The position numbers and the translations under genes are program-made. A stretch of DNA of 64,000 bases, from positions 62,001-126,000 of the forward strand of contig JAHHHB010000003.1 in NCBI GenBank assembly GCA_019359545.1. Direction: 5' to 3'. The notes under the pieces are model-generated. The model ran no database searches, had not been told where the DNA came from, and saw only the letters and a program-made list of their open reading frames with translations. Shown piece by piece: positions 22,355 through 61,998 of the stretch. This DNA comes from Desmonostoc geniculatum HA4340-LM1 (GTDB lineage: Bacteria > Cyanobacteriota > Cyanobacteriia > Cyanobacteriales > Nostocaceae). The first letter of the stretch is position 1; every line of letters begins with the position of its first letter.

Positions 22355-22792
22355 TCAATTTGCTGGCAATTGTGGTGGATTCTCCTGATCGACGTATCCC
22401 TGGCTAATTTCAACGATATTGCCATCTGGATCGGATACCCAAACCGTGCGCCACCCAGGAATAAAACTATCAAAGTTGAGCGGTCCAAGGGTCACTTTTG
22501 CGTCTTTGCCAATTTCAGCCAGCTTAGCGTCAACATCATCAACCTGAAAACCAAAATGACGCCAAGCTGGATAAGTAGGCCCGTCTTGGGTGGCTAAAGG
22601 GATGGGGGTTTCTCCTTTTGCTTGGAAGAGTTCAAGGTACATATCACCCAATTTCAGAAAGACAATCTGCTCATTATTGCCAACTGGTGCAACCCTTGCT
22701 CGTTTAAAACCGAAATATTTTGTGTAGAACTTTTCAGTTGCGATCGGATCTTTGCAGCTGATTGCCATTTGAGAAACTTTTAGCAAAGCCAT
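22355..22792 (-). CDS. VOC-superfamily (glyoxalase/bleomycin-resistance fold) protein
   Basis: A small soluble protein of 145 residues with one glyoxalase-fold domain: AISCKDPIATEKFYTKYFGF at the start, HFGFQVDDVDAKLAEIGKDA in the middle and WVSDPDGNIVEISQGY near the end. The terminal VEISQ Glu and the H of HFGF fit the usual metal ligands. ATG 22792 is preferred over a GTG 21 bases upstream because AAGGA sits eight bases before it. It is the last gene of the run that starts with the two DJ-1/PfpI genes, 37 bases after the tandem SnoaL gene. A role in handling reactive 2-oxoaldehydes is possible but not shown. Confidence 0.85.
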   Translation of the reverse strand: MALLKVSQMAISCKDPIATEKFYTKYFGFKRARVAPVGNNEQIVFLKLGDMYLELFQAKGETPIPLATQDGPTYPAWRHFGFQVDDVDAKLAEIGKDAKVTLGPLNFDSFIPGWRTVWVSDPDGNIVEISQGYVDQENPPQLPAN

Positions 22793-22829
22793 TACTTCAG
22801 TCCTTACTGACACAAAAAAGTGAATTTAG

Positions 22830-23651
22830 TTATGCGTATGACCCATCGGGGTACTGAATTACACCAGCAAAGTGAACAGCGATTTTGCGATCGCGCAACA
22901 CCCAGTTATCATAAAAACTCACCTTGCCAACATCGCCATTGACGCTTTTGGTTTTCAAGTTTTCAACTATCATCAGCGCGTTCTCAGTTTCAGCCCACTG
23001 GTGAAGCTTGACCTCAAAATCTTCTAAACTGAAGATACGGCTTTCAAAGAACTGTTTGAGTGCTTGGCGACCGCGCACGTAAATCGGTTTGCGGTTTTCA
23101 GTCAAGGTGCTAATTAGCAAGACATCTTCAGCATATTGGTTGAGTAAACCATCAACATTTTTAGCTTTGATGAAACCGATATGTTCTTTATACAACTTGC
23201 CCAATGGAGATGCAGGTACTTCTGTTTTAATTGTTCCTGCATTTACATAAGTTTTATCTGGATACTGAATTACGCCAGCAAAGTGGATAGCAATTTTTCC
23301 ATCTTGCAAAAACCAGTTATCGTAAAACTCAACACTACCGACTTCACCGGTCTTACTTGTGGTTGTTAACTCCTCTACCATCATCAACGTGTTTTCAGTT
23401 TCAGCCCATTGATTAAGCCTGATTTCAAAATCTTCTAAACCGAAAATACGACCTTCAAAGAACTCTTTGAGTGCTTGACGGCCTTGTACGTAAAGTGGTT
23501 GGCGGTCTTCAGTTAAGGTGCTAATGAGCAGAGCATCATCAGCATACTGATTTAACAAACCATCAACATTTTTAGTTTTGATAAAACCGATATGTTCTTT
23601 ATAGAGCTTGCTGATGGGAGAAACAAGCAATTGTTCTATTGGTGTACTCAT
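22830..23651 (-). CDS. tandemly duplicated SnoaL/NTF2-like protein
   Basis: A 273-residue protein made of two nearly identical SnoaL-like domains. Residues 14-132 and 149-270 share SKLYKEHIGFIKTKNVDGLL / GKLYKEHIGFIKAKNVDGLL and KIAIHFAGVIQYPD / KIAVHFAGVIQYPD. Each domain is a cone-shaped alpha+beta barrel that usually binds a small ligand or dimerises, so the duplication probably makes a covalent pseudo-dimer. ATG 23651 has AGGA about eight bases upstream. Its neighbours are two further single-domain NTF2-like genes on the same strand. Catalytic function cannot be assigned from the sequence. Confidence 0.85.
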   Translation of the reverse strand: MSTPIEQLLVSPISKLYKEHIGFIKTKNVDGLLNQYADDALLISTLTEDRQPLYVQGRQALKEFFEGRIFGLEDFEIRLNQWAETENTLMMVEELTTTSKTGEVGSVEFYDNWFLQDGKIAIHFAGVIQYPDKTYVNAGTIKTEVPASPLGKLYKEHIGFIKAKNVDGLLNQYAEDVLLISTLTENRKPIYVRGRQALKQFFESRIFSLEDFEVKLHQWAETENALMIVENLKTKSVNGDVGKVSFYDNWVLRDRKIAVHFAGVIQYPDGSYA

Positions 23652-23818
23652 GGTAGTCCTATATGTAGGGGATTAAGACTGAAAAAAGTGATGACGGAGG
23701 ATACAAATGAAGGTGAGCAAAACTAAGGTGAACTCGTTTGTAGTTGGCGCTAGTTCCTAACTACAAATAAGTGCGTAGTTTACCGCTGTAGGTATAGCCT
23801 GACATTTGTGCTATTCTA

Positions 23819-24190
23819 TTAAACCCAAAAACCAAAGTGATAAGCAATTTGTCCATTACGCATAGTCCAGGCATCTCCAACTGACACTAGACCAAGTTTA
23901 CAGTTGAATTTTGCTTGAAAAAAAATGGCGTCTTCTGCTTCTGTGAAGTCCAGGGATTTGATATCAATATATTCAATTGTTTTTAGGTAGTCGTGAAAGA
24001 ATGTTTTGATATTTTCACGACCTTTAATTGTGATAGGTGCAGATGTGTTCTCAAAGCCATTGAAAAAGGTGATTAACACAGCATCTTCTGCATAATCCCT
24101 ATCTACCATTTCATCGATTTTTCCCGCAGAAATAGTCTCAAGATGTTTGTCAAAGAATTGCCGTCCGGGTGAAATTGTTGAAACCGCCAC
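23819..24190 (-). CDS. SnoaL/NTF2-like protein
   Basis: A single-domain protein of about 123 residues with the NTF2-like pattern: an N-terminal helix region (RQFFDKHLETISAGKIDEMV), then AEDAVLITFF, IKGRENIKTFFHDYLKTIEY and a final strand set GDAWTMRNGQIAYHFGFWV. It resembles the two halves of the neighbouring tandem protein in order of elements. The GTG at 24190 is preferred as start because AGGAGAT lies just upstream at good spacing; a longer frame to 24229 exists. It sits between the tandem SnoaL gene and a third NTF2-like gene. Ligand and reaction are unknown. Confidence 0.75.
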   Translation of the reverse strand: MAVSTISPGRQFFDKHLETISAGKIDEMVDRDYAEDAVLITFFNGFENTSAPITIKGRENIKTFFHDYLKTIEYIDIKSLDFTEAEDAIFFQAKFNCKLGLVSVGDAWTMRNGQIAYHFGFWV

Positions 24191-24316
24191 TTTTATATCT
24201 CCTATAATTGTGATAGAACTTATGAGCATGGAGCGCTAATCACTACATATAATTATTTGTGCGGTGGTTATGTGCGCCCCAAAACTTCATTTTTTCGCGG
24301 ATGTCTGCAAACTTAT

Positions 24317-24766
24317 TTAAAGACGGGCAGATCCTTCATAGTAATTAAGTGAATCAACAATGTAGGTTGCAATCACTGGCTTACCTGTTTGAAGCGATCG
24401 CTTCACAATCCAAGTTTGATAAGCATCTAAAACAATGCGTTGGCTTTTAGCTGCTGGTGGATTCCACACGCTAGCTTCCCATTTGACGATGACTTGAACG
24501 CTCGCCTCGTCTCCTGAAGGCTTAACGTTGACTTGCTTTAATGTATGGACTTCATCAAAGAAAATTCCGATAACGCGCTCGTACCAACCTTTAAATCCAT
24601 CAAAACCATAAACTGTAGCTTCCGGAAAGCGCATTTCTAGACCATCTTCAGCCAGGAAAGGAATATAATCTTCCAGTGGAGCGTGAACATCTAGTTTCAA
24701 ATACCAATCTGTTGCTAGTTGTTTGATTTCTGATTGTATTAAAGGTGCTGTTTTAGCTACTGTCAT
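24317..24766 (-). CDS. SnoaL/NTF2-like protein
   Basis: A 149-residue single-domain NTF2-fold protein: WYLKLDVHAPLEDYIPFLAE at the start, VYGFDGFKGWYERVIGIFFD, then a strand-rich half with ASVQVIVKWEASVWNP and a C-terminal VIATYIVDSLNYYEGSARL. ATG 24766 is preceded by AAGGAAG. The gene follows the ThDP enzyme by 39 bases on the same strand and so is probably in its operon. Proteins of this fold include isomerases, cyclases and dehydratases, but also many non-enzymes. No catalytic residue can be assigned here. Confidence 0.75.
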   Translation of the reverse strand: MTVAKTAPLIQSEIKQLATDWYLKLDVHAPLEDYIPFLAEDGLEMRFPEATVYGFDGFKGWYERVIGIFFDEVHTLKQVNVKPSGDEASVQVIVKWEASVWNPPAAKSQRIVLDAYQTWIVKRSLQTGKPVIATYIVDSLNYYEGSARL

Positions 24767-24805
24767 TGTTTTTCTTCCTTTTAATTCAGTAAAAATTCTG
24801 GTCTA

Positions 24806-26554
24806 CTATTGGCCACACTTGACGCCAATCTTTGTACCAACAATTTCGTTTGTCAGTACCAAATCAATTAAAAATGGCCCGTTATGATCCAATGCTTTTT
24901 GGATAGCTGGAGCAATCTGATCTGGCTTCTCTACCCGAATAGCTTGAACCCCTAAAGACCTTGCTAATTCAGCGAAATCGATATTTGGGTTGCACAGGTT
25001 AAAAGAAGACGGGTAATCGTGTTCTGGTATTTGCTGCTCGCCCCAATAGTGCAGAATGTTGAGCTTGAGAATTTGATAGCTGCGATTATTGCAGATGACA
25101 AATTTAGCATCTATATTGTGGTGGGCAGCAGTCCAGAGGGCTTGGATGGTATACATACTGCCGCCATCACCCGTGAACCCAACCACAGTTTTATCTGGAT
25201 GAGCCAGCTTAATACCGATCGCTCCAGGAATACCAACACCTAGCGAACCGCCTCGTGTTTGGTAATATTGTCCTAGTTTTGTCGGTGGTATGTACCGACA
25301 AAGTTCGGGAGAATTGGTAATGGCTTCATCGAAAATAATGGCATCTGCTGGCAGATGGGCAGCTAATTCTTCTGCAAAACGAGTCATGTGCAGAGGTACT
25401 GAATCCCGAACCGCCTTATCAGCTTCCAATCGATCTGCCGATTCCCGCTTCTTGTTTTCAGCTATCCGGCTAGCCCTAAGAGAAGCCTCTTGCTTCTGTT
25501 CAGGTGTCAAAGTGGACTCAAGAGCGATCGCTAATTTGCTCAGACTAATTTTCGGATCGCCAAGCAGTCCCAGATCCACCGGAAAATTCTTCGCTATTTC
25601 GTAGGTATTCAAGTCAATGTGAATTATTTTTGCTGACGAAGCAAAAACTCCAGACAGCGCCGGAAATACCTCTGGAAAAACGTAAGTTCCAGTAATCAAT
25701 ATCACGTCTGCTTGTGACGTAATCCGACGGCTATCATCCCCAAACATATGACCCAGCAGCCCTCCGAACAGAGGATGTGTAGCACTCATGTTCGCTTCCG
25801 ATGAATCTGCTCCCCAAACTTGTGCGCCGATGAGTTCGGCTACATCTGTCAATTCAGCCTGGGCATCGGAAAAAGCTACACCATCGCCCATAATAATTAG
25901 GGGATGTTTAGCGGCGGCCAATAAAGTTGCTGCTGTTGCCAGTCGGTCGGGTTCGGGGGCAACCCGTGTCACTGGAAAAGAAGTCGGGACAACCTCTTCA
26001 TAATTAGGAGCATCAAGGATATCCATCGGCAGGGAGACGAACACCGGCCCCATAGGCGGCGTAGCAGCTATTTTGATGGCTCGGCGTAGCACGCGTAACA
26101 AAGAAGAAGGATCGACTACCCTAGTTGACCATTTTGTTACAGGCTTGGCCATACTGACTAAATCTGCTGCCATTTGGGCATCCATCGCATCGTAGCAGAT
26201 GCCAGCTTCACCAGCCAGTACTACTAATGGTGCATGACCGCGCATAGCCTGATAAATCATCCCGATGCCATTGCCCAAACCCACTCCGCTATGGAGTTGC
26301 ACAATAGTAGGCTTTTTGGTGGCGCGGGCATAGCCATCGCCTGCACCTACTGCTATTGTTTCTTGCAATGCAAAGATATATTTAAATTCTGGATAATAGT
26401 CCTTTAACGCGTCTAGAAACCCCTGCTCAACAGTGCCAGGGTTGCCAAACATGTAATTTATACCATCTGCCAGAAGTTGTTCGATCATTGCAAAGCGACC
26501 ATTTCTGTTAGCCATCAAAGGCTTCTCGTTGCTCTGTTTGGTCAAACTTACCAT
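24806..26554 (-). CDS. ThDP-dependent enzyme, acetolactate synthase/benzoylformate decarboxylase-like
   Basis: A 582-residue thiamine-diphosphate enzyme with the three-domain layout of the acetolactate synthase superfamily. The ylide-activating Glu is E65 in FALQETIAVGAGDGYARA. The cofactor motif runs from GDG at 462 to NN at 490. NPGTVEQGFLDAL and the middle domain (PLIIMGDGVAFSDAQAE) resemble benzoylformate- or phenylpyruvate-type decarboxylases more than acetolactate synthase proper. The start ATG overlaps the stop of the upstream DJ-1/PfpI gene by seven bases, so the two are coupled. It probably decarboxylates or carboligates a 2-oxoacid whose identity is not readable from sequence. Confidence 0.85.
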   Translation of the reverse strand: MVSLTKQSNEKPLMANRNGRFAMIEQLLADGINYMFGNPGTVEQGFLDALKDYYPEFKYIFALQETIAVGAGDGYARATKKPTIVQLHSGVGLGNGIGMIYQAMRGHAPLVVLAGEAGICYDAMDAQMAADLVSMAKPVTKWSTRVVDPSSLLRVLRRAIKIAATPPMGPVFVSLPMDILDAPNYEEVVPTSFPVTRVAPEPDRLATAATLLAAAKHPLIIMGDGVAFSDAQAELTDVAELIGAQVWGADSSEANMSATHPLFGGLLGHMFGDDSRRITSQADVILITGTYVFPEVFPALSGVFASSAKIIHIDLNTYEIAKNFPVDLGLLGDPKISLSKLAIALESTLTPEQKQEASLRASRIAENKKRESADRLEADKAVRDSVPLHMTRFAEELAAHLPADAIIFDEAITNSPELCRYIPPTKLGQYYQTRGGSLGVGIPGAIGIKLAHPDKTVVGFTGDGGSMYTIQALWTAAHHNIDAKFVICNNRSYQILKLNILHYWGEQQIPEHDYPSSFNLCNPNIDFAELARSLGVQAIRVEKPDQIAPAIQKALDHNGPFLIDLVLTNEIVGTKIGVKCGQ

Positions 26555-27375
26555 CCGTACCGCCTCAGTCCTTTATCCAGAACTTCCACTAACTTCTGAC
26601 CAGTTGTATAAGAATCTGCGGTAGACCGACCTGTGATAAATGGATAATCGACAATCACGGAGATTTCTTTGCCAAAATTACCGTGATATGCTCCATCTGG
26701 GCCTGTGGCATCTTGGAGAATATACTCTAGAGGATAGGGAGGTGGCCCCATGTTAATGTCTGCGCCGACAAATCCTGTGCCATCTTTGTAATCATATTCT
26801 TTGCAATGGCCTGTGACGTGCTTGCCCCAAATAATGCTCTTGCGGTCTGCTAGGTCACGAGCAAAGGCAAGACAAGTTACACCGTAGCATTCTGCTGCGA
26901 TCGCCTTACCCTTTTTGTAGAAACTCAGGATCAGGTCGTGAACCCGATGGTTATTTACTAAATCAACAATAGGACCACTACCACCGACTATCAGTAGAGC
27001 ATCGTATTGTTCCAAATCCTTCTGCACTTCATCGACTGCATTGTTGTAGGCTTCCATTTCCCGAAGGAATTTTTCAGCACTCCAGTAAGGGCGATCGGGC
27101 AACCATTGTGACAGGATGATTGGATTATCCAATCGTGGGTTCTTAGGATCTTCTAAGCGCTTGACTTTTTCCGCCATCTCTTGGGAGACAACTGTCCGAC
27201 CTAAAGGTGGGTCAATATAAGTAGCGTCCATGCTGGGAGGAAGCGCTACTGGCCTTTTTCCTGTTGGAGTTGCAAAGTCAACCTGATACCCCGCAGCATC
27301 GAAAGTTTCTAAGGGCCCTACCAGTTCTTCACCCCAATAACCATATTCCGATAAAATTATTAGAATCTTTTTCAC
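26548..27375 (-). CDS. DJ-1/PfpI-family (class I glutamine amidotransferase-like) protein
   Basis: A soluble 275-residue protein of the DJ-1/PfpI superfamily. It starts MKKILIILSEYGYWGEELVG with the conserved Glu of the strand-1 loop, has DALLIVGGSGPIVDL, and the nucleophile elbow AIAAECYGVTCLAF with C163. Relatives act as glyoxalase III, deglycase-like enzymes, proteases or isonitrile hydratases. The start is a GTG at 27375, eight bases after AGGAG. The stop overlaps the ThDP gene start, suggesting the two proteins work on the same compound. The usual His after the nucleophile Cys is Tyr here, which may alter its activity. Confidence 0.85.
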   Translation of the reverse strand: MKKILIILSEYGYWGEELVGPLETFDAAGYQVDFATPTGKRPVALPPSMDATYIDPPLGRTVVSQEMAEKVKRLEDPKNPRLDNPIILSQWLPDRPYWSAEKFLREMEAYNNAVDEVQKDLEQYDALLIVGGSGPIVDLVNNHRVHDLILSFYKKGKAIAAECYGVTCLAFARDLADRKSIIWGKHVTGHCKEYDYKDGTGFVGADINMGPPPYPLEYILQDATGPDGAYHGNFGKEISVIVDYPFITGRSTADSYTTGQKLVEVLDKGLRRYGW

Positions 27376-27412
27376 AAGATTGTCTCCTAGTGATGAATTT
27401 ATTTTCAGATTG

Positions 27413-28096
27413 TTAGCTTACAGCTCTGAGTGTTGAAACAGAGGGGCTAGGCCTTCTGGTTGAGAAACGATTAGTACCAATAGATATTTGTTGGATTTGT
27501 TCGGTAATCGCGTCAATGAATGGTTCAACCTCATGCTTTGAGCGACCAGTAACAAGATCGCCGTCCACTACAACACCTGTAGATGACGTTGTATAAACTG
27601 CGCCAGCGTTAAGAATATCTGCAAGGACAACCTCATGGCAGATAACATTTCGGCCTTTGAGTAACTCAGGTACTGGTGTCAGTATCCACAGGCCGTGGCA
27701 GAGTGCACCTTTAATAATCCTGGGATTTGCCATCGCCTTGGCATAAAACTGTACAGCTGGTGAAGTACGAACTTGTTCAGCATTGACTAAGGGAGTTGAT
27801 AGTAGATCGAAGTAGCGGAGGCGCACGCTGGTATAGTTAGCAGTCATAATCACAGCCGCGTAGTCGTTAACGTCTACGTTTTGAAAATCAATGTCTACAT
27901 CTATTGTTCGAGGAGTATTGCCTGTATCTTCATCACTGAAAAAACGAACGGTTGGCTTGTCCCAGAGTCTAGACATCAGATGTACTGTTGCTTTGAGTTC
28001 TGAGAAGCGCTTTTGATAAGCTTCGATTTCTTCAGGAATGAACTCACTTTCGACAAGAACTGCAATTTTTTTACCACCAAGGGATCTAGGTATCAT
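27413..28096 (-). CDS. DJ-1/PfpI-family protein, second copy
   Basis: A 227-residue protein of the DJ-1/PfpI family, with IAVLVESEFIPEEIEAYQKR at the start and the nucleophile elbow KGALCHGLWIL containing C133 and H134. It ends IDAITEQIQQISIGTNRFS plus a Ser/Arg-rich tail. It is not a close duplicate of the neighbouring DJ-1 gene: the Cys-His pair and the N-terminal loop differ. It is the first gene of the minus-strand run and starts 452 bases from the divergent M24-like gene, so that spacer should hold its promoter. Two different DJ-1-type proteins beside one ThDP enzyme is unusual. Confidence 0.85.
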   Translation of the reverse strand: MIPRSLGGKKIAVLVESEFIPEEIEAYQKRFSELKATVHLMSRLWDKPTVRFFSDEDTGNTPRTIDVDIDFQNVDVNDYAAVIMTANYTSVRLRYFDLLSTPLVNAEQVRTSPAVQFYAKAMANPRIIKGALCHGLWILTPVPELLKGRNVICHEVVLADILNAGAVYTTSSTGVVVDGDLVTGRSKHEVEPFIDAITEQIQQISIGTNRFSTRRPSPSVSTLRAVS

Positions 28097-37862: not shown

Positions 37863-38903
37863 ATGCCTAAATTTTCTTTGATTGTTTTGAACTGTGTACA
37901 AATTTTGCTGCTGGCTTCTTGCCGTTATCCCACCACAGACGCCATATCTACCTTTGCAAAGAAAACACACCTCGCAGATACAGCTGTAGCTGCTAGTCCT
38001 GAAGTAATACTGCCGCCAGCATATATCATTTCACCAATAAAGGTTATACAAAGTGATAAATACTCCGAGGGAATTGTCTTAGATAGTGCCAGTAACCTCT
38101 ACTTCTCCCAAACCAAAGCCGGGACAATCACAGTTTTAACTCCTGAAGGATTTACTAAAATCTGGGCTAAAGTCCCAGGCGCGAATGGTCACAAGATCAT
38201 GCCAGATGGGACTCATATTGTCGCTGCCCAAAACTCCGTATTGCAGCTAGATACCAATGGTAAGCTGCTAAAAGTGATTGCCAAGGAATTTAATGGCAAG
38301 CCCTTGCAGTATCCGAATGACATTACTATTGATTCACAAAAAGGAAGTTTTTACTTCACTGACTCCGGCAAATCAAACTCTGAAACTCCAAATGGTGCTA
38401 TCTACTACGTGGATTCTAAAGGTAAAATTAACTTAGTTGCTACCGGATTAGCTTTTGCCAATGGCATCCACTTGGCTCCAGATCGGAAACGGCTCTTTGT
38501 TAGCGAAAGCAATAAGAATCAAATTTTAGTCTATAACGTACTTTCACCGGGAAAAGTGAGTTCATCGAAAGTATTTGCTGAACTTCCTGTCAAACAGGGA
38601 GAGCAAATCGACAATCAGCCCGACGGGATATGTCAAGATGCAATGGGGAACCTCTACGTGGCTCACTATGGTATGGGTCAAGTAGAGGTTCTCAATCCTG
38701 AGGGCAAGCTGATCCGTCGATATTCAACTGGTAATCTCACCAGTAGTAATTGTGCTTTTGCAGGCCCGAAGCTCGACCAGTTATTCGTGACCGGCGGCAT
38801 AAAAGCAGAAGACGGTTATGGAGGGATATTCCGTCTAGATATTGGCGTGCCAGGATTAGACATCCGACCCAAGCCGAAAGGGTCATCTTTACAAGAAAGA
38901 TAG
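37863..38903 (+). CDS. SMP-30/gluconolactonase/LRE-like beta-propeller lipoprotein
   Basis: A 346-residue secreted protein. The N-terminus ends in the lipobox LLLASC with C20, so it is a likely lipoprotein. The rest is a six-bladed SMP-30/NHL-like propeller: SEGIVLDSASNLYFSQTKAG, YPNDITIDSQKGSFYFTDSG, FANGIHLAPDRKRLFVSESN, QPDGICQDAMGNLYVAHYGM, SNCAFAGPKLDQLFVTGGIK. The Glu of SEGIV, Asn of PND/NGIH and Asp of QPDG fit the metal site of gluconolactonases. GAGG lies about ten bases before the ATG. With the GMC oxidases it could hydrolyse a lactone or ester product in the periplasm. The reaction is inferred from the family. Confidence 0.82.
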   Translation: MPKFSLIVLNCVQILLLASCRYPTTDAISTFAKKTHLADTAVAASPEVILPPAYIISPIKVIQSDKYSEGIVLDSASNLYFSQTKAGTITVLTPEGFTKIWAKVPGANGHKIMPDGTHIVAAQNSVLQLDTNGKLLKVIAKEFNGKPLQYPNDITIDSQKGSFYFTDSGKSNSETPNGAIYYVDSKGKINLVATGLAFANGIHLAPDRKRLFVSESNKNQILVYNVLSPGKVSSSKVFAELPVKQGEQIDNQPDGICQDAMGNLYVAHYGMGQVEVLNPEGKLIRRYSTGNLTSSNCAFAGPKLDQLFVTGGIKAEDGYGGIFRLDIGVPGLDIRPKPKGSSLQER

Positions 38904-39443
38904 ACTTATCCAAATTAATACTTCGGACAATTTTGAGTTGAGGGAATCGACAAGAAAGCTATCAAACGATTAAGGTGCTAATTAGAACAAACAAGCACCG
39001 GATTGTCCGGAGTATTGTCAAAATATAAACTCGATAAATTAGGATTTTTTTAGAAAAAAACATCTTATGTAAGTTTTAAATAGGCTTATATTCAAAAATG
39101 AATACACTAATCTTCAAACGTATATTTCATTATAATTACCAGCAGATTCTGGTAGTAATTTTATTAAAGACTAGTTGGACAGACACTATAACCGAAAGAA
39201 TACAAACTTCGTTCAAAAATTTAACCCTTGCAATTATGTTTTGTAATTTCTAGACTAAAGTAAATTCAAGGTTGCGAACAACAACAATAGCTAAAGAATT
39301 GTGGTTCTCGTTATTTTTATTTAGACAATAAGTACTAAGTAACTACAGTTTTTCTGCTATTAATCCAGATTATTAGGGAGAAAAGATTAGAATCGGCGAA
39401 GTGCAAATTAACATATTCATCGACAGACTTAAAGGAGAAGTGC
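38904..39443. other. intergenic region between SMP-30-like gene and SDR
   Basis: About 540 gene-free AT-rich bases. The left end carries an inverted repeat (annotated separately). The right end leads to an AAAGGAGAAGTGC ribosome site before the SDR start at 39444. Nothing else was recognised. Confidence 0.45.
38917..39016. repeat. inverted repeat AATACTTCGGACAAT / ATTGTCCGGAGTATT
   Basis: Two 15-base arms (38917-38931 and 39002-39016) match in 14 of 15 positions, with 70 bases between them, starting 14 bases after the stop of the SMP-30-like gene. It may form a long hairpin in the 3' end of that transcript or be a small mobile repeat. No poly-T run follows directly. Confidence 0.55.
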
Positions 39444-40160
39444 ATGAGTTTACAAAATAAAGTTGCTATTATCACCGGGGCTAGTGGTGGTATCGGCGAA
39501 GCAGTTGCCAAGGAGCTAGACGCAGCAGGCATGAGTTTAGTACTCACAGCGCGATCGCAAGACAAACTTGAACGCCTCGCGTCAAATTTGCAACATGCTA
39601 AAATCGTCCCCGGTGAGATCACAGACCCCGAATTGCCACAAAAATTGGTAGATTTTGCCATCCAAACTTTTGGTCAACTTGACGTAGTTTTTAACAATGC
39701 AGGCGTGATGACTGTAGGGCCAATTGAAGCTGTCGATATCGAAGCAATCTGTCAAATGGTTCGAGTCAACGTAGAATCTGCTTACAGGATTGGCTACACA
39801 GCACTCCGGCACTTCAAGCAATCTGGTAGTGGATTTTTAATCAATACTTCAAGTATTGCTGGGCTAAAAACAGTTCCCCAACTAGGTGCTTACTGCGGTA
39901 CTAAATTTGCGATTGAGGCCTTTACAGATTCCCTCCGCGTGGAACTTGCAGGAACTGACATTCGTGTATCAAGCATTGCTCCAGGCACTGTAGATACGGG
40001 CTTATACGACAAATGGGGAGACCAGCAAAAGGATTTCATCTATTCAGGAGGTGTACTGCAACCAATAGACATTGCTCGTTGTGTTCGTTTCATCTTAGAA
40101 CAGCCAGGTAACGTCCTTATTCCCAGGCTTTTGGTAGTTCCAGCTGCTGAACCAGTGTAA
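39444..40160 (+). CDS. SDR-family oxidoreductase
   Basis: A classical short-chain dehydrogenase of 238 residues: NAD(P) loop TGASGGIG at 11-18, FNNAGVMTVG, catalytic segment NTSSIAGLKTVPQLGAYCGT with Tyr and the following Lys, and the post-catalytic SSIAPGTVDTGLYDKWGDQQ. The TAR motif after strand 2 suggests NADP preference. GGAG lies seven bases before the ATG. No signal peptide was seen, so it is cytoplasmic, unlike the GMC enzymes beside it. It is 83 bases upstream of the tandem-NHLP gene and could be co-transcribed with it. Substrate unknown. Confidence 0.88.
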   Translation: MSLQNKVAIITGASGGIGEAVAKELDAAGMSLVLTARSQDKLERLASNLQHAKIVPGEITDPELPQKLVDFAIQTFGQLDVVFNNAGVMTVGPIEAVDIEAICQMVRVNVESAYRIGYTALRHFKQSGSGFLINTSSIAGLKTVPQLGAYCGTKFAIEAFTDSLRVELAGTDIRVSSIAPGTVDTGLYDKWGDQQKDFIYSGGVLQPIDIARCVRFILEQPGNVLIPRLLVVPAAEPV

Positions 40161-40243
40161 TACCAAATCCACCTAATAGGACTTAATTTTTCTTTACTAT
40201 TCCAATCAAACCCACTTTTTTGAGTTTAAAGAACTACCTAACA

Positions 40244-40960
40244 ATGGTAACCACAAATCCTTCGCTAACAAATATCTCTACTGATTTCCCCCAAGTTAGA
40301 AAGCTTTGGTCAGGTGTAGATATCACGAATTTTGGACCTTATTATGAGGCTTTACAAGCGCGGCTAATTGACCGCATTTGGAATGATGAATCACTCAAGC
40401 AAGAAATACTTACCAATCCAAAATTTGTGTTTGAAAGGGAAACAGGAATCGCATTTCCCGCAAATTTAGAGGTTAAGGTTTTAGAAGAACCTGAGAAGAC
40501 TTTCTACTTTGTACTTCCTGCAACTCCACCAGTTGAAGAGCATTGGTATAGATATGAACAGTTTGCTAGCTGGTGGCCAATCATTGATACTTTTTGGTAT
40601 TTTTACTATCGACTTGCCGGCGCTACCAAAGCTAGAGCTTACAGAGAGTGTTTACAAGCGTTATGGATAGTTCGTTCTTGGACTAATGAAGTCTTCCGTC
40701 AAAAACTCCTTAACGATCCAAGATCGATATTTGAAGGAGAAATGGGAATACCATTTCCTGCTGATTTAAAGATTCAGTCATTAGAAGAAACCTCAAACGT
40801 CATATACTTTATTCTTCCCAAAAATCCCCAACTTGAGAAACTTGATGATCGTGCGACTGTTGGTGAATGGTGGAAGGCATCACATGGTTTGTGGTGGTGG
40901 TATACCTCATTGCGATTCCGACAACCAGCTATGAATACAGTAACAGGAGTAGTTGGATAA
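40244..40960 (+). CDS. protein with two NHLP (nitrile-hydratase-leader-like) domains and aromatic-rich tails
   Basis: A 238-residue protein without a signal peptide, built as a tandem. Domain 1 (about 36-95: WNDESLKQEILTNPKFVFER, ETGIAFPANLEVKVLEE, FYFVLPATPP) and domain 2 (about 137-196: WTNEVFRQKLLNDPRSIFEG, EMGIPFPADLKIQSLEE, IYFILPKNPQ) both match the NHLP fold used as leader in proteusin-type peptide precursors and related to nitrile hydratase alpha. Each is followed by an aromatic-rich stretch: 100-123 (HWYRYEQFASWWPIIDTFWY) and 208-220 (GEWWKASHGLWWWY). The nitrile hydratase metal motif CxxCSC is absent. ATG 40244 is chosen over TTG 40220. It is not a standard precursor, as no radical-SAM, LanM, YcaO or peptidase-transporter gene is nearby. 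Function unknown. Confidence 0.75.
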   Translation: MVTTNPSLTNISTDFPQVRKLWSGVDITNFGPYYEALQARLIDRIWNDESLKQEILTNPKFVFERETGIAFPANLEVKVLEEPEKTFYFVLPATPPVEEHWYRYEQFASWWPIIDTFWYFYYRLAGATKARAYRECLQALWIVRSWTNEVFRQKLLNDPRSIFEGEMGIPFPADLKIQSLEETSNVIYFILPKNPQLEKLDDRATVGEWWKASHGLWWWYTSLRFRQPAMNTVTGVVG

Positions 40961-41327
40961 GTAATTAGGGACTTAACAAAAACTCTTGATGTGAAAAATA
41001 AAAGAGCCAAAGCTTTGCAAAGATAAGTCTGAGCGGAGGCTTCCCACTATCAGAGCTTCGGGGGTTTCCCCATAAGCAACTAGTGTGCTTTTTCAAAAAG
41101 CAAAACCTACATTTAGGCGATTGTTTTTTCTCAAAAAATTGAGATATTAAAATTCAATCGCCACTTTATTTATCAGCAATCAATACATTTGTATGTTAAA
41201 TAAATATTTATTCTGTAGAAAAAATAACTGTAACATTTAGTTGAAACAGTGGGAATTGAAAATATTAATTTATTAGTATAAATTTATTTTATAGAAACCT
41301 GGACATTATCAAATTTTGGAGAATTAT
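40961..41327. other. intergenic region before third GMC gene
   Basis: About 367 bases. The left part (near 41028-41075) holds GAGCGGAGGCTTCCC and CGGGGGTTTCCCC words of a cyanobacterial intergenic repeat type that may pair imperfectly. The right part is AT-rich and should contain the promoter of the third GMC gene, ending in a TTTGGAG ribosome site. Confidence 0.45.
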
Positions 41328-42938
41328 ATGATTCATAAGCCTTTTAAGCGCCGCTACTTTATTCAGGGTGCTGCACTATTTTCTGCTGGTTTAGCCGGTT
41401 CATTTGCATTTCCAAATCAGACCCGTGCTAGCGATGATTATATAGACGCAGTAGTAATTGGTAGCGGTTTTGGCGGAGCCATTGCTGCTTTACGATTAGG
41501 GCAAGCTGGTATTAACACGTTGATTTTAGAGCGAGGTAAGCGTTGGCCGATTACACGCAATCAAAATACTTTTGCAACTTTCGATAAACCTGACGGTAGA
41601 GCTGCTTGGCTGAGTAAAAAATCTGTATTTAACGATCCTGTAGATGTGTATACAGGAGTTTTTGAGACACTACAAGAAAAAGGAATTATTGTTGTCAATG
41701 GTGCTGGTTTTGGTGGTGGGTCATTAGTTTACAACGCTATTACTTACAAACCTAAGCGTGAAATATTCTATAAGGTTTTTGATTATTCTGTTGTTGATTA
41801 TGACGAGTTGGATTCTATTTACTATCCTCGAGTCAAAAAAATGTTAAAACCATCACCAATTCCACAAGATGTTTTAGCTACAACTTACTATGGTAAAACC
41901 CGATTCTTCATGGAGAATGCAAACAAGGCAGGCTTACCAAGTTTTTTACTAGATCTAGCTGTAGATTGGGATGTAGTTCGTCAGGAAATTAATGGCTCAA
42001 AAACACCTTCTATTATAAATGGCCAATGTTGGTGGGGTGTTAATAGTGGAGCAAAAAATAGTTTAGATTACAACTATCTTCCTGAAGCTGAAAACACAGG
42101 TAAAGTAAATGTTCTAACTCTACATTTAGTTACGGATATTGCTAAAATACCCGGGCAAGGAAATTACCGTGTTTTCTGTAATGAAATTAATGAGTCAGGA
42201 GAACTTATCAGGAAGAAAACTTTTACCTGCCGCTATTTATTTATAGCAGCTGGTTCTGTCGCAACTTCTAAACTTTTAGTTAAAGCTAAAGCAAAAAACT
42301 CACTACCTCAATTAAATAACTTCGTTGGTAAAGAATGGGGAACTAATGGAGATAACATTACAATTAGATCGGGTTTAGGCTCTGTAACAGGTAATGGAGG
42401 AACCGCAGGTGCTGTTATTGAGCAACTTGATGGGCCGACTCCTATAGTTGTAGAGAGTCTTGAACTGGGGAATAATCCTGACGGTATACAATCTTGTCTT
42501 GGTTTAGGTATTCCTCGTTCAAAGGGTAAGTTTACATACAATTTCTCTACAGATAGTGTTAATTTGGAGTGGCCGGGATCTGCCGACGATCGCATTGTGA
42601 AAAAGACAGAGCGTCTTTTCGCAACTCTAGATCGGAGCATTAATACTTTTGGAAAACAACCTCGCCATAAAACCCAAGAGGGGATGATATCAAGATACCA
42701 AAATAATACTGCTGTATCTGAAAATAACGCTGCTGCTATTACTGGCCATCCTTTAGGTGGTTGCGTTATGGGAAAAGCTTGCGATCCATTTGGGCGAGTA
42801 TATGGTTACCCTAGACTTTATGTTGTTGATGGTGCGCTGATTCCAGGCTCTACAGCTTGTACAAATCCTTCTTTTACAATTGCAGCTTTAGCAGAACGTT
42901 GTATGGACAAAATCATTGCAGAAGATATTAACGGTTAG
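41328..42938 (+). CDS. Tat-exported GMC oxidoreductase, cholesterol-oxidase-like, copy 3
   Basis: Third paralogue, 536 residues. The signal FKRRYFIQGAALFSAGLAGS has the twin arginine at 8-9. The FAD motif is VIGSGFGGAIAALRLGQAG. The catalytic blocks HPLGGCVMGKACDPFGRVYG and GALIPGSTACTNPSFTIAAL are the closest of the three to the cholesterol-oxidase consensus. ATG 41328 is preferred over TTG 41316 because GGAG lies six bases before the ATG. It follows the tandem-NHLP gene by 367 bases and precedes an SDR by 190 bases on the same strand. Copies 2 and 3 share the TACTNP loop that copy 1 lacks. Confidence 0.88.
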   Translation: MIHKPFKRRYFIQGAALFSAGLAGSFAFPNQTRASDDYIDAVVIGSGFGGAIAALRLGQAGINTLILERGKRWPITRNQNTFATFDKPDGRAAWLSKKSVFNDPVDVYTGVFETLQEKGIIVVNGAGFGGGSLVYNAITYKPKREIFYKVFDYSVVDYDELDSIYYPRVKKMLKPSPIPQDVLATTYYGKTRFFMENANKAGLPSFLLDLAVDWDVVRQEINGSKTPSIINGQCWWGVNSGAKNSLDYNYLPEAENTGKVNVLTLHLVTDIAKIPGQGNYRVFCNEINESGELIRKKTFTCRYLFIAAGSVATSKLLVKAKAKNSLPQLNNFVGKEWGTNGDNITIRSGLGSVTGNGGTAGAVIEQLDGPTPIVVESLELGNNPDGIQSCLGLGIPRSKGKFTYNFSTDSVNLEWPGSADDRIVKKTERLFATLDRSINTFGKQPRHKTQEGMISRYQNNTAVSENNAAAITGHPLGGCVMGKACDPFGRVYGYPRLYVVDGALIPGSTACTNPSFTIAALAERCMDKIIAEDING

Positions 42939-43128: not shown

Positions 43129-43878
43129 ATGAAAACAGAAAAAAGAGTCGCAGTTATTACAGGCAGTTCCAAAGGTCTTGGTTTTGAGATTGCCAGACAA
43201 TTAGCGAAGCTAGAAAATGTTCAAGTTATCATGTCCAGTCGAGACGAAGCACAGGGATTGGAAGCTCGTGGTAAATTGGTACAACAAGGTATTAAAGTTG
43301 ACTATCTACCTCTTGATGTAATTGATGACAAAAGTGTTGAAAATTTTGTCACTGCCTTAAATAAACAGTATGGGAGGGTAGATATATTAGTCAATAATGC
43401 AGGCATCAATTCTACAAAAGAGCCTGAAGAAAGCAGTATACTGACAGCAAAATTGGCTACGGTTATGTCGTCATTTACAGTCAATACAATAGGCGCATTA
43501 CGGATGTGTCAAGCACTAATTCCTCTAATGAAAGAGCGTAATTATGGTCGCATTGTCAATGTATCTACTGAAATGGCATCCTTAAGTCTTACAAGTAATG
43601 ATTTTTATTCTATTGCTCCTTCATATAGGCTGTCAAAAATTAGTTTAAATGGAGTGGCTTGTCTGTTAGCTAAAGAGTTGAAGGGCACTAATATTTTAGT
43701 CAATAACTATTCTCCTGGATGGATGAAAACTGATATTGGAGGAGCAGATGCGCCTTTGACCGCAGAAGAAGGTGCAGAAACAGCTGTTTATTTGGCTACA
43801 CTGCCAGATGGTGGTTCTCAAGGTGGCTTTTTTGCAGAAATGAGAAAGTTTGGCGGCCCATTCCCTTTGCCTTGGTAA
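43129..43878 (+). CDS. SDR-family oxidoreductase, carbonyl-reductase-like
   Basis: A 249-residue short-chain dehydrogenase. The cofactor loop is TGSSKGLG at 11-18, followed by SSRDEAQGLEA, VNNAGINSTKEPEESS and the catalytic SIAPSYRLSKISLNGVACLL with Tyr and Lys. The arrangement TVNTIGALRMCQALIPLMKE and NYSPGWMKTDIGG is typical of carbonyl-reductase-like SDRs. It is the last plus-strand gene of the GMC region and is followed by an inverted-repeat element and a terminator-like hairpin. It may reduce or interconvert products of the GMC enzymes, but it is cytoplasmic while they are exported. Confidence 0.87.
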   Translation: MKTEKRVAVITGSSKGLGFEIARQLAKLENVQVIMSSRDEAQGLEARGKLVQQGIKVDYLPLDVIDDKSVENFVTALNKQYGRVDILVNNAGINSTKEPEESSILTAKLATVMSSFTVNTIGALRMCQALIPLMKERNYGRIVNVSTEMASLSLTSNDFYSIAPSYRLSKISLNGVACLLAKELKGTNILVNNYSPGWMKTDIGGADAPLTAEEGAETAVYLATLPDGGSQGGFFAEMRKFGGPFPLPW

Positions 43879-61149: not shown

Positions 61150-61998
61150 ATGTCCAACCTTGAAGAATTAGTTCAGGAAATTAACCGCTTTGAGGCAATT
61201 ATATCCGAGTGGGATGAAAGCCAACGGTGTGTAGCAGTAGGCTTAAAAAGAGCAATTGAAGCTTTGCACAAAGCAGCATTAACTAATTTGATTAAAAACC
61301 TCAAACAAGAAGCAATGCCAGCTTTGCGCCATGCTGTTAGTGATGAAGTAATATATGCAGTATTGCTTTATCACGAATTAGTTAAACCACCAAAACCACC
61401 ACTAGCGCAGCGCATTCAGACAGCCCTTGAAGAAGTTCGCCCAGGGCTAAAAAGCCATAACGGGGATATAGAATTAGTGGCAATTAAACCACCAGATACG
61501 GTAGAAGTTAAGTTAATAGGAACTTGCAGCAGTTGTCCAGCTTCTACTTTAACTTTATCTCAGGGAGTAGAACAAGCAATTAAAAACCATTGTCCTGAAA
61601 TCACCAAGGTTATCGCTGTCAATCATAACTCTACTGTTAACACTGCAAATTCTAGCTTGATCAGTCCATTCTCTGGGCAGTTAACATCTAGTTGGGTAAA
61701 AGTAGCAACTCAGGAACTTGTTCCTGAATCGAGTATGTTAGCAGTACAACTTGCTGGCACTTCGCTAATTTTACATCGCCAAGGTGTTAAGTTTACTTGT
61801 TACCGTAATGCTTGCGTTCATCTAGGCAATCCTTTACAAGAAGGTAAGGTTGAAAATGGTATTCTTACTTGTCCTTACCACGGATTTCAGTACAATTTAG
61901 AGACGGGTGAATGTTTAACTGCACCTGATGTTTCGCTTCAGCCATATCCAGTAAAGATTAAAGGTGATAAGGTCTTTGTGAAACTGCAAAAATTTTGA
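61150..61998 (+). CDS. NifU C-terminal-like domain fused to a Rieske [2Fe-2S] domain
   Basis: A 282-residue fusion. Residues 1-80 are helical. Residues 85-155 match the NifU C-terminal Fe-S scaffold (QTALEEVRPGLKSHNGDIEL and the CxxC of LIGTCSSCPASTLTL, C126 and C129). Residues 180-282 are a Rieske-type domain with CVHLGN (C222, H224) and CPYHGF (C241, H244). A scaffold and a Rieske centre in one chain suit a protein that delivers or matures Fe-S clusters. In Nostoc the equivalent gene lies between the hup region and hypF and was suggested to help mature the Fe-S small subunit. The exact function is unproven. Confidence 0.85.
   Translation: MSNLEELVQEINRFEAIISEWDESQRCVAVGLKRAIEALHKAALTNLIKNLKQEAMPALRHAVSDEVIYAVLLYHELVKPPKPPLAQRIQTALEEVRPGLKSHNGDIELVAIKPPDTVEVKLIGTCSSCPASTLTLSQGVEQAIKNHCPEITKVIAVNHNSTVNTANSSLISPFSGQLTSSWVKVATQELVPESSMLAVQLAGTSLILHRQGVKFTCYRNACVHLGNPLQEGKVENGILTCPYHGFQYNLETGECLTAPDVSLQPYPVKIKGDKVFVKLQKF

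Follow-up and report, generated by a model that had tools for sequence, protein, structure and literature searches.

A tandem NHLP-domain protein with conserved Trp-rich segments in Desmonostoc geniculatum, a candidate accessory protein of a neighbouring oxidoreductase

The window analysed here is a stretch of 64,000 nucleotides from Desmonostoc geniculatum HA4340-LM1 (contig JAHHHB010000003.1, positions 62,001 to 126,000), and its subject is P0001, a 238-residue protein encoded on the plus strand at 40244–40960. P0001 carries two NHLP domains, each followed by a Trp-rich segment, or tail. We consider it somewhat probable, at roughly 0.55, that P0001 is a cytosolic, non-catalytic, folded accessory protein that docks to a neighbouring oxidoreductase, in the first place a short-chain dehydrogenase (SDR). 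The earlier note, made from the sequence, had left two options, a two-core peptide precursor or a protein that binds some partner enzyme; the evidence favours the latter, with docking and the partner themselves being what we infer.

The open reading frame (ORF) is genuine, with ATG at 40244 and an in-frame TTG also present at 40220. NHLP domain 1 (residues 31–96; 40334–40531) scores 64.1 bits and NHLP domain 2 (residues 131–196; 40634–40831) 61.1 bits with the NHLP model NCBIfam TIGR03793, so each half separately exceeds the cut-off of 50.9 and the two copies suspected in one protein are borne out. The suggested likeness to nitrile hydratase alpha (Pfam PF02979) is found for the whole protein (44.3 bits against a threshold of 27.2) but not for the single halves, which reach 23.0 and 25.8 bits. 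The halves are 38% identical to each other over 94 residues, and P0001 is the sole match in its own 7.36-Mb genome at E≤1. Domain 1 is modelled as helices at residues 28–67 and strands at 76–81 and 86–91. The Trp-rich segments (residues 97–126, 40532–40621; residues 206–226, 40859–40921) are modelled with low confidence as helices spanning residues 99–125 and 206–222, within a few residues of where the aromatic-rich tails had been placed. Their richness is real as well: P0001 has the highest Trp fraction among the 35 window ORFs of at least 150 aa, and its densest stretch has Trp, Tyr or Phe at 12 of 25 residues, as against 9 in the next window ORF.

To follow the tails among relatives, 11 distinct orthologous sequences were aligned, the other ten being 47–99% identical to P0001. 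Residues W101, Y104, Q106, W110, W111 and T116 of tail 1 and W210, H214, W218, W219 and L223 of tail 2 are invariant in all 11. A simple tail pattern finds both tails in nine orthologues and misses tail 2 in two (loci L055 and L056), which have one Trp fewer. Ten pairs gave 20 tail values for the ratio of nonsynonymous to synonymous substitution rates (dN/dS), of which 16 are computable and 15 lie at or below 0.30. When tail 1 was compared with tail 2 of the same protein, the score was reached by none of 500 shuffles in five proteins, by 3–4 in two and by 11–14 in three, several of the 11 proteins being near-copies of each other. Given that the tails resemble each other in 10 of the 11, they seem to belong to the duplicated repeat unit. 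Both features noticed in the earlier note, the tandem copies and the aromatic tails, are conserved among the orthologues.

The family is narrowly distributed. In a survey of 388 genomes of the order, 49 have a match at E≤0.001; a full-length orthologue is present in six, and the rest are partial or of precursor type. Among 217 genomes of the family, nine match at E≤1e-15, namely seven full-length orthologues and two precursor-type proteins with two NHLP domains, one adjoining a LanM-type synthetase (G344) and the other a 1088-aa ORF (G389). In an even draw of 386 genomes across the phylum, only the window's own genome matches at this level. Named genomes were scanned as well, with a reach limited to close relatives; matches came from Nostoc calcicola, Nostoc sp. 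CHAB 5824 and a Nostocales metagenome-assembled genome, and a plasmid scan gave one record with the tandem gene, pC052_B of Nostoc sp. C052. The literature was searched for this protein and for internal repeats of nitrile hydratase alpha; the listings and passages covered held nothing on the tandem family.

On a quickly built tree of 93 NHLP units (65 columns, no bootstrap, many forks unresolved), units 1 and 2 of the tandem family form separate clades with Shimodaira–Hasegawa-like approximate likelihood ratio (SH-aLRT) values of 94 and 87 and join in a single clade (90) that leaves out the units of two- and four-domain precursors. The simplest reading of this branching is that a single duplication within the family gave rise to both units. 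A profile of the unit with its tail matched 51 of the 388 genomes and extended past profile position 90 only in the six tandem-family genomes, the other matches stopping at positions 49–88; hence no single-unit relative with a Trp tail, and no single-unit ancestor, was found among those 388. The statement that NHLP domains normally occur as one copy proved incomplete, since some precursor-type proteins of the same order have two NHLP domains and others four, and nitrile hydratase alpha itself shows a weak second match to the NHLP unit.

Both of the structure models made for P0001 give the whole-domain, two-lobed fold of the nitrile hydratase alpha subunit. Together with the sequence similarity of both halves to nitrile hydratase alpha and thiocyanate hydrolase gamma (PF02979), this suggests that the two NHLP lobes pair as in the enzyme, without its metal site. 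The metal claw of nitrile hydratase is a CxxCSC-type Cys motif placed between the lobes. Unlike the enzyme, the P0001 family lacks such a claw and has 0–2 Cys per protein (C136 alone in P0001; CxxC in one of the 11 orthologues, L034, and not conserved), and P0001 has a Trp-rich segment between the lobes instead. No member of the nitrile hydratase beta-subunit family turned up when 38 of the window's 47 ORFs of at least 100 aa were scanned with Pfam.

The steadiest neighbour of the gene is an SDR gene, which adjoins it in 10 of the 11 loci. In the window this is SDR1 (39444–40160, plus strand; adh_short, 170.8 bits), directly upstream; SDR1 adjoins in eight loci, seven times upstream and once, in L037, downstream, while in L053 a GMC oxidoreductase gene, GMC3, lies between it and the NHLP gene. 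Sites lacking the NHLP gene are informative. In six loci (L110–L114, L118) SDR1 is directly followed by SDR2 (43129–43878, plus strand, in the window) with a gap of 45–58 bp; in the window the two are separated by 2,968 bp holding the NHLP gene and GMC3, and in L004 by the NHLP gene alone. In L102–L104 coxS comes after the kind of SDR that adjoins in L055 and L056, without an ORF of at least 120 aa in between; at this site L055 and L056 themselves carry the NHLP gene together with one for a zinc-type dehydrogenase. In L115–L117, SDR1 occurs in other surroundings. A search for remnants of the NHLP gene at empty sites gave, in nine loci, only one 24-residue match (E 0.9). Thus, the NHLP gene is optional, is placed after an SDR and is under selection where present.

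The proposed link to a cluster of GMC oxidoreductases holds in part. An orthologue (at least 74% identical) of GMC3 (41325–42938, plus strand; GMC_oxred_C and GMC_oxred_N) adjoins the NHLP gene in the window, L002, L003 and L053 and lies three genes away in L037, but the stretches fetched for the remaining six loci show none. One of these, L004, has orthologues of GMC1 and GMC2 some kb upstream, and genome G161 has a GMC gene of 53% identity in the following 20 kb (L058). With GMC3 adjoining in just four of 11 loci, a GMC partner as a general rule was rejected, and GMC3 is regarded as a context gene that is not constant. The three window GMC proteins start with an RR-x-F-(L/I)-Q-type stretch, which we take to be a twin-arginine translocation (Tat)-type label; P0001 has no such start. 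Hence a shared compartment may not hold, and, judged from these N-termini, the GMC proteins and P0001 may reside in different compartments.

Under the docking proposal, a unit of one NHLP domain and one Trp-rich helix would have been duplicated once in the ancestor of the tandem family, and both copies would fold jointly into a two-lobed nitrile hydratase alpha domain. One conserved Trp-rich segment would then sit between the lobes, where the enzyme has its metal claw, and the second at the C-terminus. It is probably through the aromatic segments that P0001 would contact the product of the adjoining oxidoreductase gene in the cytosol, with the SDR as the leading candidate. The operons concerned appear linked to a cluster encoding sugar- and carbonyl-type enzymes.

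Several observations weigh against this proposal. The SDR is a putative partner by gene adjacency, and in L055 and L056 the adjoining SDR is a different one, with 30–31% identity to SDR1. SDR1 is found in 24 of 208 family genomes (E≤1e-95) and the tandem protein in 7 of 217, so that SDR1 occurs without the NHLP gene. In L037 the NHLP protein is 47% and SDR1 76% identical to that of the window; the two are thus not strictly co-travelling, and because of this mismatch and the copy on a plasmid, the NHLP gene may move on its own. The tails, with mean pairwise identities of 0.55 and 0.57, are less conserved than domain 1 (0.76) and close to domain 2 (0.62); tail 1 has a dN/dS of 0.61 for L034 versus L035 (dS 0.07), and the tail 1/tail 2 alignment of L053 is no better than shuffles (219 of 500). 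As for the models, mean confidence is just 58.6 in each, with predicted local distance difference test (pLDDT) values of about 45 for tail 1 and 41–54 for tail 2 in the first and below 50 for both in the second. The stretch matched to the enzyme runs to residue 221 in the first model, including tail 2, but stops at residue 186 in the second, leaving tail 2 outside. Finally, a Gly-Gly pair (RLGG) follows tail 1 in L003 and L053; the other nine orthologues have RLAG, LCG, IHG or no counterpart at this site.

This last point bears on the reading of P0001 as the precursor of a ribosomally synthesized and post-translationally modified peptide (RiPP), with one or two aromatic cores and a tailoring enzyme that is unusual or encoded elsewhere. 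NCBIfam places P0001 above the precursor cut-off, and RefSeq annotates the copy on pC052_B as 'NHLP leader peptide family RiPP precursor'. Moreover, four-NHLP proteins with a Trp/Arg-rich tail occur beside a Trp halogenase in the same order, so that aromatic cores behind repeated NHLP leaders are possible. P0001 shares with the NHLP/proteusin leader family (TIGR03793; Haft et al. 2010, PMC2887384) the domain itself, twice and above cut-off, and the lack of a metal site. The same source covers the TOMM pair BMA_0021/BMA_0022 (TIGR03795), which are NHLP relatives and for which fused pairs are reported; P0001 scores 35.3 bits with TIGR03795, below the cut-off of 41.

In contrast to such leaders, a double-Gly-type motif (AGG, SGG, TGG or ASG) after the last NHLP domain is present in none of the 11 orthologues; the same pattern, a loose one, is found in 49 of 57 other NHLP ORFs of the fetched loci, which are best matches and not a random draw, and in two of the eight misses, both four-NHLP proteins, GG falls on the border of the matched region. 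In L003 and L053 the Gly-Gly pair sits behind the aromatic segment, not before it. A short, hypervariable C-terminal core is absent as well, the tails being conserved and tail 1 lying between two domains. The scanned window ORFs include no LanM, YcaO, radical SAM enzyme, halogenase or peptidase-ABC exporter, which bears out the suspicion raised by missing tailoring enzymes, although more distant genes are not excluded. Other proteins of the order share tandem NHLP domains in one polypeptide, two in L024, L038, L039, L040 and L057 and four in L041 and L042, but those of L040, L041 and L042 have a GG-type motif and a core, and these repeats group apart from the P0001 family on the tree. A two-core precursor is therefore disfavoured, the classical RiPP reading was rejected on motif, tail conservation and neighbours, and any kind of RiPP precursor seems very improbable.

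It is also rather unlikely that P0001 serves as an anchor whose Trp-rich segments lie at the membrane interface and tether soluble oxidoreductases. The modelled helices are rich in Trp, Tyr and Phe, tail 2 ends in Arg residues in 10 of the 11 orthologues, and in every protein the most hydrophobic 18-residue stretch lies in a tail, with an Eisenberg mean of 0.35–0.64 that suits an interfacial helix and is low for a transmembrane one. Nevertheless, the top hydrophobic moment over 18 residues is merely 0.37–0.48 and falls outside the tails in several proteins, and the first model places tail 2 within the enzyme-matched stretch, at low confidence. We regard as improbable a carrier whose aromatic part at the metal site binds a small molecule or cofactor for a nearby molybdenum hydroxylase or dehydrogenase. 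Such a role would suit the invariant H214 within the aromatic segment and the genes for a [2Fe-2S] subunit, XdhC and a MobA-like protein that come next in L034–L036; the [2Fe-2S] gene lies one gene further on in two more loci, and L055 also has a molybdopterin-binding large subunit nearby. However, these genes do not adjoin in the window or in five other loci, and the sole match to that [2Fe-2S] protein in the window's genome is 44% identical and on another contig.

NHLP leaders are thought to derive from a nitrile hydratase-type enzyme, and both annotation and genome mining take an NHLP match to indicate the precursor of a peptide natural product. The tandem family passes the curated cut-off and bears the precursor label in one RefSeq record, yet the other hallmarks tested are absent; it is therefore a clear case on which to test how precursors can be distinguished from leader domains that have been domesticated. 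We tentatively propose, as possible rather than probable, that a RiPP leader domain has here left peptide biosynthesis: once duplicated, it would have rebuilt the two-lobed enzyme fold, with a Trp-rich segment replacing the claw, and become a mobile subunit of oxidoreductase operons. The two-lobed fold, if true, would also suggest how a single unit can become a docking protein as well as a leader peptide and a domain of an enzyme.

In the window, a cluster on the minus strand (22355–28096) comprises genes for a VOC protein, a thiamine diphosphate (ThDP) enzyme and two DJ-1-like proteins, along with three SnoaL-type ORFs, of which one scores below the Pfam threshold. The corresponding cluster directly adjoins the SDR-NHLP pair in L034–L036, in variant form in L055 and L056, and lies a few kb away in L053. 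Of 208 family genomes, 28 have the ThDP gene (E≤1e-180), and the matches listed include six of the seven tandem-protein genomes, G486 not being among them; in G438 it and the tandem gene are on different contigs. The 336-kb plasmid pC052_B (NZ_CP040274.1) carries the DJ-1/ThDP/VOC cluster and the tandem NHLP gene, with one IS110 transposase inside the enzyme cluster and another behind SDR1. Literature listings gave nothing relevant on this cluster under desiccation or OrrA, and phage families gave no match. Scanning 38800–41500 gave five promoter-like sites (7.8 in shuffles) and three terminator-like sites (2.1), an uninformative outcome.

Other NHLP proteins came to light in the same order. 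Genome G297 encodes precursor-like proteins in which four tandem NHLP domains precede a GG motif and a Trp/Arg-rich tail, at L041 681–1619 and 1962–2852 and at L042 5814–6740 and 7001–7930. In L042 there are also genes for a TPR protein, a JmjC/cupin protein and a Trp halogenase (PF04820, 491 bits), and this may be a cluster for a halogenated RiPP whose leader is quadruple. Two-NHLP proteins of the precursor type are encoded at L040 6796–7485 and 7715–8326 (G361; VAGG motif, Cys-containing tail), L024 1240–2106, L057 7281–7997 and L039 9020–9787, the last adjoining a LanM-type synthetase. Within the window, the large, mostly minus-strand cluster at 1199–31264 encodes amylase-type enzymes, an MGH1-like glycosidase, a 4-alpha-glucanotransferase and aquaporin-type, DJ-1-like, ThDP and SnoaL-type proteins. 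It also includes a histidine kinase, as well as a fusion of a response-regulator domain with a pyridine nucleotide-disulphide oxidoreductase domain. At 61150–61998, a 282-aa protein combines NifU-like and Rieske [2Fe-2S] domains.
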